Assembly (NCBI GenBank): GCA_018057825.1
Contig: JAGPCY010000018.1
Coordinates: 97,186 to 161,185, forward strand
Direction of reading: 5' to 3'
From: Kofleriaceae bacterium
GTDB taxonomy: Bacteria; Myxococcota_A; Polyangia; Haliangiales; Haliangiaceae
Length of the DNA: 64,000 nucleotides
Shown here: positions 34,114-41,765 of the stretch, one piece after another
Layout: each line of letters opens with the position of its first letter
Numbering within the stretch: the first letter of the stretch is position 1
Notes under the pieces: model-generated
Database searches by the model: none
The model's input: only the letters and a program-made list of their open reading frames with translations
Told to the model about the DNA's origin: nothing
Translations under genes and position numbers: made by a program

Positions 34114-37623
<3,510 letters not shown>

Positions 37624-37882
37624 CGAAAAGGCCTCGCTTGGGTCGACCCGCGCCGACCTGATCGGGCGAGTCGCGCCCCACTCCCGCCATGGATGCATGG
37701 TCCGTCGAGTGGTCGGGAACCGGCCGGAGACTCCGGCGCGCTTCCATCGCGTCGCTCGTAACCCAGCACGAACGACGCGCGCACGACGACCTTACCACGG
37801 GTGGTCGCGGTGGCGAGCGGCCTGGGCGAATCTTTGCGCCGGGCCCCCGGCGACTGGGGCGCTGGTGGTAAGAACGTTTCAT
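37624..37882. other. Divergent spacer between recQ and plsB-like gene
   Basis: 259 bp. A TAAGGT (minus strand, 37789-37794) and a TAAGAA (plus strand, 37869-37874) could act as -10 elements. Otherwise no palindrome or gene was seen. Confidence 0.4.
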
Positions 37883-39496
37883 ATGGCGAGCGATCGGCCG
37901 GTCCTCGAGGCCCGCAGTCGGCTCGACGGCTTCAACGCCGATCGCGACCGTGTCCTGCGTGAGGTCGAGCGCCGCGTCGTCGAGCGCGTGACCCGCAAGG
38001 CCGCGGCCGGCGGCGATGCGTCCCTCGAGTACGTCTTAAACGATGTGTGCGTGAGCGAGATCAAGCGCCTCGACGGCAGCGGCGGCGACGCCGGGCGGTG
38101 GCGCGATCTGGCCCATCGCCTCGGCGCGATGTCGCCGGCGCAGCTCGCCGGTGAGCTGCGGGCCCTGGTCGCGCACTACGGCAAGGACATCGTCGGCAAC
38201 TTCGATCCGCGGGTCTACCGCTTCGCGACCAAGGTCCTGACCCCGGGGTTGGGCTTCTTGTTCTCGCCGACGCGCAGCGTCCGCGGCGGCGTCGGCGGTC
38301 TGCTCGCCGAGCTCGACAGCCGGATCCAGGTCGAGGGTCCCCTCGAGCACCTGCGCGCGATGGCCGAGCGCGGCACCCTGGTGGTCACGCCGACGCACTC
38401 GTCGAACATGGACTCGGTGGTGATCGGCCTGGCCCTCGAGCGCGCCGGGCTGCCGCCGGTGACCTACGGCGCCGGTAAGAACCTGTTCACCAATCCGTTC
38501 ATCTCCTTCTTCATGCACAACCTCGGCGCCTACCGCGTCGATCGTCGGCTGCGCTTCGAGCTGTACAAGGAGATCTTGAAGGAGTACTCGACGGTCCTCC
38601 TCGAGAGCGGCTACCACTCGCTGTTCTTCCCGGGCGGCACCCGCTGCCGCTCGAACGTGATCGAGCCCAGCTTGAAGCTCGGGCTCCTGGGGACCACGGT
38701 CACCGCCTATCGCAACCAGCTCGCGGCCGGCGGCGCCCACAAGAAGATCTACGTCGTGCCGGCCACGATCAACTACCGGCTGGTCCTCGAGGCCGAGACC
38801 CTGATCGGCGACTACCTCGCCGAGACCGGCAAGAGCCGCTACATCATCACCGACGACGAGTTCTCGCGCCTCGGGCGGATCGTCGAGTTCGTCCGCAAGA
38901 TCTTGGTCCACGAGGGCGCGGTGGTCATCCGCTTCGGCCGGCCCCTCGACGCGCTCGGCCACGACGTCGACGACGACGGCCGCTCGCTCGATCGCCGCGG
39001 TCGTCCGGTCGACCTGCGCGGCTACTTCACCGACGCCGCGGGCGCGATCGCGGTCGACGAGCAGCGCGACGCCGAGTACACCCGCTTGCTCGGCCGCCGC
39101 CTGGTGGCCGCGTTCCCGCGCGAGTCGGTCTTCCACGCCACCGCGGTCGCGGCGCGCGCGATCTACGATCGGCTGTGCGCGGCGGCCGGGACCCGCGACA
39201 TCTACCGCCTGACTCGGCTGCCGCCCGGCCGCACGGTGGCGGTCGCCGACGTCGTCCGCAGCCTGGGGGCGCTGCGCGCGCAGCTCGCCGCTCGCCCCGA
39301 GGCCGGTCGGCTCCACGCCCGGGTCGCCGCCGCCGGCGACAGCGCGGTCCTCGACGACGCGGTCCGCGCCCTCGGCACCTACCACAGCCACCCGGTGATC
39401 GAGCGGGTGAGCGACCAGGTGCGGGTCGGCGACGTGAAGCTCCTCTACTACTACCAGAACCGCCTGGCTCACCTGCCCGTCGAGGTGGTGCCGTGA
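37883..39496 (+). CDS. PlsB-like glycerol-3-phosphate O-acyltransferase family protein (altered motif III)
   Basis: 537 residues. The LPLAT core shows TPTHSSNMDSVV (H172-x4-D177), TYGAGKNLFTNPFISFF, GAYRVDRR and FFPGGTRCRS. The last replaces the usual (P)EG(T/G)RSR, so the conserved acidic residue that helps position glycerol-3-phosphate is Gly251. It would acylate a polyol phosphate at the membrane; whether glycerol-3-phosphate is the substrate is open. The gene overlaps a GpsA-like gene by 4 bp, which links the pair to phospholipid-type synthesis. TAAGAA ends 8 nt before the ATG. Confidence 0.82.
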   Translation: MASDRPVLEARSRLDGFNADRDRVLREVERRVVERVTRKAAAGGDASLEYVLNDVCVSEIKRLDGSGGDAGRWRDLAHRLGAMSPAQLAGELRALVAHYGKDIVGNFDPRVYRFATKVLTPGLGFLFSPTRSVRGGVGGLLAELDSRIQVEGPLEHLRAMAERGTLVVTPTHSSNMDSVVIGLALERAGLPPVTYGAGKNLFTNPFISFFMHNLGAYRVDRRLRFELYKEILKEYSTVLLESGYHSLFFPGGTRCRSNVIEPSLKLGLLGTTVTAYRNQLAAGGAHKKIYVVPATINYRLVLEAETLIGDYLAETGKSRYIITDDEFSRLGRIVEFVRKILVHEGAVVIRFGRPLDALGHDVDDDGRSLDRRGRPVDLRGYFTDAAGAIAVDEQRDAEYTRLLGRRLVAAFPRESVFHATAVAARAIYDRLCAAAGTRDIYRLTRLPPGRTVAVADVVRSLGALRAQLAARPEAGRLHARVAAAGDSAVLDDAVRALGTYHSHPVIERVSDQVRVGDVKLLYYYQNRLAHLPVEVVP

Positions 39497-40470
39497 CCCG
39501 GGGCGACACCGTCGGGATCGTCGGCGCCGGTACGTTCGGCACCGCGCTCGCCGTGGCCCTGGCCCGGGCCGGCCGCGAGGTCGTGCTCTACACCCGCACC
39601 CCCGTGGTCGCGGCCGCGATCGCCCAGACCCGGCGCTGCCCGCGCTTGCCCGAGGTCGAGATCCCGGCCGCGGTCCGCGTGGTCGTCGACCCGGCCGACC
39701 TGGCGGCGGCGGCGCGCTTCCTGGTCGTGGCGGTGACCTCGGCCGACGTCGCGGCGCGCCTGACCGAACTCGGCGCGGTGGTCGATGGCGGTCACCTGAT
39801 CGTCCACGCCATCGGCGCCCTGGCGGCCCCCGACGACGTCCGGGTCAGCGAGCTGATCGAGCGGCTGACCCCGGTCTTGCGGGCCGGGGTCCTGGCCGGG
39901 CCGGCCCTGCCGGGCGATCTGGCGAGCGGCCGCTTCGCGTCGATGGTCGTGGCCTCGAGCTTCGACGAGGTGGTGGCGGAGGCGCGGCGCCTGCTCAACC
40001 TGCCGCCGACCTTGCGGCTGTACGGCTCGCGCGACCTCGCGGGCGTCGAGCTGGCCTCGGCGCTGGCTGGCGCGTACACCGTCGCCCTCGGGCTGGCCGA
40101 CGGCGCGGCGGTCGGCGCCGGGCCGCGCGCGGTCTTCATCACCCGCGCGGTGGCCGAGGCGACCCGGCTGGTCGAGGCCACCGGCGGCGCGGCGCGGACC
40201 TTCGCCGGCCTGGCCGGGCTCGGCAACCTGCTCATCCGCGCCGCCAGCGACGACGATCCCGACTACCGGTTGGGCCGGGCCCTGGCGCGCGGCGAACGCG
40301 ATCGCCCGCGCACCGAGGGCGCCCACGCCGCCCTGACCGGCCTGCGCCTGGCCGAGCGCCGCCGGGTGCGGATGCCGCTCCTCGCCGGTCTGGCCGCGGT
40401 CCTCGACGGCAAGCTCGATGTCGCCGCCGCGGCCCGCCTGGCCGCAGACACGGTGGCGGTGGAGGAGTGA
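39493..40470 (+). CDS. GpsA-like dehydrogenase lacking catalytic residues
   Basis: 325 residues from GTG overlapping the previous stop. The N-terminal Rossmann motif VGIVGAGTFGTALAVALARAG is intact, and GVELASALAGAYTVALGLADG and TFAGLAGLGNLL align well with glycerol-3-phosphate dehydrogenase. The reaction residues are replaced: the first Lys (KG) is Ile107, the catalytic Lys-Asn is Ala192-Gly193, the Asp is Asn245, and the substrate Arg-Asn is Pro256-Asp257. It may bind NAD(P)H but is unlikely to reduce dihydroxyacetone phosphate by the usual mechanism. It could be a regulatory partner of the acyltransferase or use another substrate. Confidence 0.8.
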   Translation: MTRGDTVGIVGAGTFGTALAVALARAGREVVLYTRTPVVAAAIAQTRRCPRLPEVEIPAAVRVVVDPADLAAAARFLVVAVTSADVAARLTELGAVVDGGHLIVHAIGALAAPDDVRVSELIERLTPVLRAGVLAGPALPGDLASGRFASMVVASSFDEVVAEARRLLNLPPTLRLYGSRDLAGVELASALAGAYTVALGLADGAAVGAGPRAVFITRAVAEATRLVEATGGAARTFAGLAGLGNLLIRAASDDDPDYRLGRALARGERDRPRTEGAHAALTGLRLAERRRVRMPLLAGLAAVLDGKLDVAAAARLAADTVAVEE

Positions 40471-41765
40471 TGCGGGCTCTTGCCGCGGCGCTGGCGTTGG
40501 CCGCGCTCGGCTGCGCGCGCGGACCGGCGCCGACGGCGACCGCCGACGGTGCGACTCCGGCGATCGCGATCCACGCCGATCGATCCGGTGGTCGCGCGGT
40601 GGCGGTGATCGCCGAGCGCCGCGAGGTCGAGATCGTCGACGGCGCCTTCACCGTCGACGACCTGCTGGGCGAGGTGGTGCTGGCCAGCCTCGCGGTCGAG
40701 GCGATCGACGGCGGCTCGCGCCTGGTGGTGCGGCGGTGCGCGCGCCCGTCCCTGGGCGAGGGCGCGTCGGTCGCGCTCGGCCATCAGGTCTCGGTCACGT
40801 CCGCCGGGGGCGCCCGGGTGGATGGCGCGCTGCGCTCGGCCGATCCGGCCGGCGTGATCGTCGCCGGTGCCGACGGTCGCGACCACGAGCTGTCGCTCGA
40901 CGCGGTCGCGGACCTGGCGGTGGTCGAGCCGCTGGCCACCGGCCTGCGCTGCGAGGTCGAGGGAGGTACCGGGCGGCGCCAGCTCCGGCTGGTCTACACC
41001 TCGTGGAGCTTCGCGTGGTCGGCGCGCTACCATCTGCGGCTGGCCGCGGACGGCGAGGCGCGCGGCGGCGCCGCGGCGATGACCCCGCGCTTCGCGATCG
41101 TCGCGCCGCGGGTGGCTCGGCCGCGGCCGGTCGCGGTGACTTTGGTCGCGGGGCTGCCCGGCGACGGGACCCTGGCGCCGGCTCAGGTCTGGTCGGGGAC
41201 GGTCACGCTCGACGGTGACGTCGAGGTCGCCGGCGCACCGACGACGCGCTCGGCCTCCGTCGGGTGGGTCTACCGCGGCCTCGATCCCGCGGGCGCGCGC
41301 GACGAGCGCCACGATCTCTCGCACACCCTGGTGACCGAGGAGCTCGAGCTCGCGCCGAGCGCGACCGACGTGCCCGGTCCGGTGGAGATCGAACGGGCCG
41401 ACGGCGCGCGGGTCCGGTCGGCGATGCCGCCGGTCGGCGAGCCCGACAGCCGCGGAGTCCGCCCGGCGATACGGCTGGTGCTGGCGACCTCGGCCGAGCT
41501 GGTCGGCTATCGCCGCTGGCGGTTCCTGGCCAGCGATGGCGCGGGCGCGATCGACGAGCTGGTCTACTCGGTGGCCAACCGCGGCGACGCCCCGGCCCGG
41601 GTCCGGATCGAGGAGCCGCTGCGCGGTCGGCCGGCGGCCATCCGGTTCGCCGCGCCCGAGGGCCAGGGCGAGGTCGATCGCCAGCGGTTCTGGCGCGAGG
41701 TCACGGTGGCCCCGGGCGGCTTAGTCCGCGGCGCGGTCGTGCTCGCGTACGGCCGGATCGATTGA
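40470..41765 (+). CDS. Lipoprotein, DUF4139-like
   Basis: 431 residues from ATG 40470 with GGAGG just upstream; the preceding stop overlaps by one base. The signal ends ALAALGC (lipobox). A central YTSWSFAWSARYHLRL and the C-terminal ELVYSVANRGDAPARVRIEEPL, FWREVTVAPGG resemble the DUF4139 domain (mucoidy-inhibitor-A-like proteins), which are beta-rich envelope proteins of unknown function. It is probably outer-membrane anchored and cotranscribed with the PlsB-like/GpsA-like pair. A GTG three bases earlier is a possible start. Confidence 0.68.
   Translation: MRALAAALALAALGCARGPAPTATADGATPAIAIHADRSGGRAVAVIAERREVEIVDGAFTVDDLLGEVVLASLAVEAIDGGSRLVVRRCARPSLGEGASVALGHQVSVTSAGGARVDGALRSADPAGVIVAGADGRDHELSLDAVADLAVVEPLATGLRCEVEGGTGRRQLRLVYTSWSFAWSARYHLRLAADGEARGGAAAMTPRFAIVAPRVARPRPVAVTLVAGLPGDGTLAPAQVWSGTVTLDGDVEVAGAPTTRSASVGWVYRGLDPAGARDERHDLSHTLVTEELELAPSATDVPGPVEIERADGARVRSAMPPVGEPDSRGVRPAIRLVLATSAELVGYRRWRFLASDGAGAIDELVYSVANRGDAPARVRIEEPLRGRPAAIRFAAPEGQGEVDRQRFWREVTVAPGGLVRGAVVLAYGRID

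Follow-up and report, generated by a model that had tools for sequence, protein, structure and literature searches.

A catalytically dead GpsA paralog paired with a PlsB-like acyltransferase in Myxococcota

Results

An acyltransferase gene overlaps a gene for a GpsA-like protein

We analyse a 64,000-nucleotide stretch of DNA from a Kofleriaceae bacterium (the window, whose positions serve as coordinates below). The first gene of the pair studied here (37763..39496, + strand) encodes a 577-aa acyltransferase of the PlsB/GPAT type, with a PF01553 match of 55.5 bits and intact HX4D (HSSNMD), GAYRVDRR and FPGGTRCRS motifs. The second (39493..40470, + strand) begins with GTG and encodes a 325-aa catalytically dead GpsA paralog, which we call pseudo-GpsA; it has both GpsA domains, PF01210 and PF07479, and 0/7 of the active-site residues. 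The stop of the acyltransferase gene and the start of pseudo-GpsA share the four nucleotides GTGA (39493..39496, + strand), an overlap from which we infer translational coupling. Within the family of the host, a 4-nt overlap of the two genes is possible in 21/25 cases and a 1-nt overlap in 2 more, and among the other linked pairs, outside this family, one or the other is possible in 76/100. We also looked for a single ORF joining the acyltransferase to GpsA and found no such frame.

The surroundings of the pair offer a few further observations. A 432-aa ORF (40467-41765) starts by a 4-nt overlap with the pseudo-GpsA stop; it has no Pfam match, is conserved in the genus and has an apparently lipoprotein-like N-terminus (MMRALAAALALAALGCA). 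On the opposite strand, a RecQ-like helicase ORF of 1194 aa (34114-37698, - strand) contains a long run of acidic Asp/Glu residues and has extensions rich in Ala/Pro. In another genome (G018), about 1.9 kb separates the acyltransferase and pseudo-GpsA (L060 3815-5728), and this interval holds no ORF >200 aa.

Pseudo-GpsA keeps the GpsA fold

Both Pfam domains of pseudo-GpsA score far over their cut-offs (PF01210 83 bits, PF07479 80 bits), and a pairwise alignment to Coxiella GpsA (3k96) covers about 306 residues with an E of 5e-27. The GxGxxG nucleotide-binding motif is present as GAGTFG at residues 11-16 (39523..39540, + strand), with Gly 11, 13 and 16 invariant in the 26-member family. The AlphaFold2 model has a mean pLDDT of 95.5 and a pTM of 0.93, and it matches 3k96 at a TM of 0.91 (Z 42.4, 317 residues at 1.8 A). 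The motif and the good overall alignment reported in the original prediction are thus borne out, and the structure prediction and GPD1/GpsA alignment that it called for confirm a GpsA fold and show the catalytic Lys, Asp and Arg to be replaced. What pseudo-GpsA shares with the known enzymes (3k96, 1z82, 1evy and human GPD1, 6e90) is the whole fold, both Pfam domains, the NAD motif and common descent; what sets it apart is the loss of all seven network residues, translation with an acyltransferase and scores below all the NCBIfam cut-offs for GpsA. Against NF000942 it reaches 194 where the cut-off is 257, and against NF000940 it reaches 164 where the cut-off is 202, while the other GpsA of the same genome passes both (410 and 366). 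Judged from its sequence, pseudo-GpsA is GpsA by descent and fails as an enzyme, by its residues and by these curated cut-offs. The pseudo-GpsA of the host family probably binds NAD(H).

The active site is replaced throughout

We read the active-site residues from multiple alignments to which the intact GpsA of the same genome was added, and we give them in human GPD1 numbering. Pairwise and multiple alignments agree that Gly108 (39814..39816, + strand) replaces the catalytic Lys K120, that Ala192-Gly193 (40066..40071, + strand) replace the Lys-Asn pair K204-N205, and that Pro256-Asp257 (40258..40263, + strand) replace R269-N270, the Arg-Asn of the substrate phosphate. In the multiple alignments, Asn245 replaces Asp (D260) and Arg249 replaces Thr (T264; 40225..40239, + strand). 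The replacements at 192, 193, 245 and 256-257 are those listed in the original prediction, which had placed the first lysine position at Ile107, one residue off; the change from T264 to Arg249, the seventh network residue, was absent from its list. The entire protein has a single lysine, K307, so no misaligned lysine can have taken over. We considered a misalignment hiding a real catalytic lysine near the position given earlier and rejected it, K307 being the sole Lys.

In human GPDH the seven network residues either contact DHAP or hold those contacts; the K120A and K204A mutations each lower kcat about 300-fold, and R269A lowers kcat/Km 4.5 million-fold (PMC12874384). Within the family the pocket has settled on particular residues: Gly108 and Arg249 are invariant and Asn245 is at least 90% conserved, a pattern that fits a ligand site free of hydride chemistry and also allows for a new reaction.

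The 8.9 Mb genome (99.7% complete) encodes an intact GpsA on a different contig, about 30% identical to pseudo-GpsA; this is the second canonical copy that the original prediction had suggested looking for. An intact unlinked GpsA is present in every checked genome with a degenerate linked copy, and all seven active-site residues are kept in 39/39 unlinked GpsAs fetched from relatives and checked. Because the unlinked copies are complete at these sites and 26 family orthologs lack the same residues, the losses in pseudo-GpsA are not due to chance. A lone GpsA in the genome would have pointed to hidden activity; we rejected that possibility, as a second copy exists and is intact.

The 26 family members have kept an open frame, the fold-critical glycines and E186, E222 and E275. 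Nei-Gojobori estimates among five genomes of the genus, rough at such high GC, give a dN/dS of 0.17-0.47 for pseudo-GpsA; in the same genomes the adjacent acyltransferase has 0.19-0.54 and intact GpsA 0.14-0.42. Since its values lie near those of these two genes, pseudo-GpsA is a functional gene under purifying selection and is not decaying. The claim that selection has kept the fold and let the chemistry go is well supported by the model, the match to 3k96, the dN/dS values and the pattern of residue retention.

Degenerate partners are widespread in Myxococcota

A scan of genome contigs with the pseudo-GpsA protein alone found nothing. A profile of the acyltransferase, used on genome contigs, found relatives in Kofleriaceae, Polyangium, Sorangium, Minicystis and Labilithrix, which puts the window in Myxococcota, and the acyltransferase is present in 86/143 sampled Myxococcota genomes. 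At 67 of the 87 acyltransferase loci in these 86 genomes (duplicates removed by hand) a GpsA-like gene is adjacent (9 intact, 57 degenerate and 1 truncated), and the remaining 20/87, several of which lie at contig ends, have no such neighbour. In the host family the dead copy comes after the acyltransferase at every locus found. The association with a PlsB-like acyltransferase that was first proposed for this one locus therefore holds up, the pairing being conserved across the phylum. In one genome (G131, L202) a divergent GpsA-like frame seemingly adjoins the acyltransferase on the opposite strand; it is scored as having no partner in the tree described below.

Degenerate linked copies outside the family (n=89) keep 0-3 of the 7 active-site residues and never 4-6. 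On average they retain the seven sites in 13% of cases and the other positions invariant in intact GpsA in 59%; inside the family the figures are 1% and 61% (Mann-Whitney p of 0.001 outside and 0.0003 inside, with columns taken as independent). For the K204-N205 pair, the copies outside the family keep the Lys in 0% and the Asn in 1%. The 89 copies show 53 different replacement patterns at the active site, and all three GxGxxG glycines are present in 70/89 and incomplete in 19/89; for the most divergent copies (e.g. L187, L196, L231) the alignment is uncertain residue by residue.

The acyltransferase partner

The acyltransferase shares with PlsB/GPAT enzymes (E. coli PlsB; human GPAT1, 8e4y) the acyltransferase core and the HX4D and arginine motifs, and in the 25 members compared H212 is nearly invariant and D217 invariant. 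Its likeness to PlsB/GPAT is weak but specific. Its profile matches the GPATs 9vuq and 8e4y in the PDB, and a Foldseek search with its model (pLDDT 76) returns human GPAT1 8e4y as the only significant PDB match (E 1.2e-11). It differs from PlsB in being smaller (577 aa), in falling far below the PlsB equivalog cut-off (57 bits against 618 for TIGR03703) and in having FPGGTR for FPEGTR in block III. This block III Gly, in place of the Glu of PlsB/PlsC, is invariant in the window and all 25 relatives, which keep HX4D intact.

The acyltransferase is the sole plsB-like gene of its genome. PlsY (PF02660) was not detected in this 99.7%-complete draft, nor in 7/7 searched genomes of the genus; PlsY is present in most of the wider family, and the genome itself has two PlsX genes. 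With no other plsB-like gene present and PlsY undetected, the acyltransferase is probably the main G3P acyltransferase and, in this genus, the enzyme through which phospholipid synthesis begins. Some clades have lost the linked GpsA-like gene and kept the acyltransferase, and there it can therefore do without a partner. We searched for an acyltransferase segment that is lost wherever the partner is lost and found none.

History of the pair

Linked copies with an intact active site are found both in Myxococcota and in Candidatus Tanganyikabacteria. When intact and dead states are placed on the acyltransferase tree, at least 3-4 changes are needed, and grouping the intact-linked copies as one clade is rejected (AU p 1.9e-7), in trees that are quick searches without bootstrap. 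Because these copies do not form one clade, either the loss of catalysis happened more than once or intact pairs were transferred horizontally; the tree accommodates repeated losses as well as a single loss combined with horizontal transfer of intact pairs. One genome (G031; L067, L037) has two acyltransferase-GpsA pairs, one dead and one intact, together with an unlinked intact GpsA, so spread or duplication does occur.

Discussion

How did a dehydrogenase come to be kept beside an acyltransferase once its active site was gone? The ancestral state may have been an acyltransferase gene followed by a gene for an active GpsA, with GpsA producing the G3P that the acyltransferase consumes, an arrangement still seen today in some Myxococcota and Candidatus Tanganyikabacteria. 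In most Myxococcota, G3P would now be supplied by the second, unlinked, intact GpsA. The linked gene would have lost its Lys/Asn/Asp/Arg active site but retained the fold and, with translation coupled, the position behind the acyltransferase; its product would now stabilise, anchor or tune that enzyme without catalysis, presumably through physical contact. That dead copies stand beside the same acyltransferase across Myxococcota points to an enzyme that has become a partner or regulator, and we consider it fairly likely that pseudo-GpsA is a pseudoenzyme of this kind, a non-catalytic partner acting on the acyltransferase in one of these three ways. The regulator or subunit raised in the original prediction is thus the explanation we favour. 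If, as is probable, pseudo-GpsA still binds NAD(H) in the host family, it could convey redox or glycolytic state to the first phospholipid step. Since GxGxxG is incomplete in 19 of the 89 other copies, NAD sensing cannot account for every lineage; a structural or allosteric role is more likely for the phylum as a whole, and NAD(H) sensing is possible in the host family. Only tentatively would we go further and propose that the dead GpsA, after repeated loss of catalysis in the same operon, has become the dedicated regulatory subunit of the Myxococcota glycerol-3-phosphate acyltransferase, one that reads the level of NAD(H) or glycerol-phosphate and sets membrane-lipid synthesis.

Against the partner reading stand the clades that have lost the gene, where the enzyme does not need it, and the failure to find any acyltransferase region tracking its presence; adjacency and coupling also fall short of proving a complex. 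A further counterpoint comes from the pocket itself, whose conserved G108, N245 and R249 could serve a new ligand or chemistry. Pseudo-GpsA might then be an oxidoreductase with a rebuilt active site and another substrate, for which one can cite the invariant GxGxxG of the family and a pocket that is re-specified and not random. We regard this as unlikely: K307 leaves no lysine near the site, the general Lys-Asn of the beta-hydroxyacid dehydrogenase superfamily is lost as well, and sister clades have unrelated residues at the same sites (53 patterns among 89 copies) and in some cases have lost the nucleotide motif. The particular version raised by the original prediction, activity on another polyol phosphate, finds no support, as the phosphate-binding Arg and both catalytic lysines are gone and other lineages carry unrelated replacements. 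That ordinary or residual GpsA activity survives the changes is hardly credible, even with the same fold and domain families, given that every first-shell residue is lost, that single losses in the human enzyme lower kcat 300-fold or kcat/Km by factors in the millions (PMC12874384), and that the protein falls below the NCBIfam GpsA cut-offs.

A dead copy could also be useful as an adaptor: by joining the intact GpsA in mixed oligomers, it would recruit that enzyme to the acyltransferase and so channel G3P. The fully kept fold, the intact unlinked GpsA in every checked genome with a degenerate copy, and the genomes in which the linked gene is itself an intact GpsA all speak for it; the two paralogs are only about 30% identical, however, which gives no prior reason to expect mixed oligomers, and we think the adaptor reading quite improbable. 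The gene could also be a pseudogene in decay, held only by its operon position. Its loss in some clades is what such decay would look like, and still we find this very improbable in view of 26 open frames, a dN/dS well below 1, the retained glycines and E186, E222 and E275, and a nearly conserved 4-nt overlap.

A non-catalytic partner of the acyltransferase would have relatives in kind, as dehydrogenase-fold pseudoenzymes are a known class. N-PAC/GLYR1 (2uyy), for example, is a beta-hydroxyacid-dehydrogenase-like protein that serves as a chromatin co-factor, and it resembles pseudo-GpsA in how it works, a dehydrogenase fold turned to a partner role. It differs in belonging to another branch of the superfamily, in its partner and in being eukaryotic, and it is only a distant Foldseek match to pseudo-GpsA. 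A literature search, which covered few subscription papers, found no published report of a PlsB-linked dead GpsA.

One acyltransferase family with intact, dead or absent partners offers a natural series in which the passage from enzyme to pseudoenzyme can be studied. There is a practical side as well: domain-based annotation would label the dead copies GpsA, and metabolic models would be misled. It is an open question how bacteria keep membrane synthesis in step with growth, and pseudo-GpsA may bear on it. In E. coli, posttranslational control of PlsB is enough by itself for this matching, and the signals are unknown (PMC7439487). In Myxococcota, an enzyme resembling PlsB has a conserved, coupled partner in a pseudo-dehydrogenase that descends from the producer of the PlsB substrate. 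If pseudo-GpsA is a subunit of the acyltransferase, it would be a direct, testable control point.
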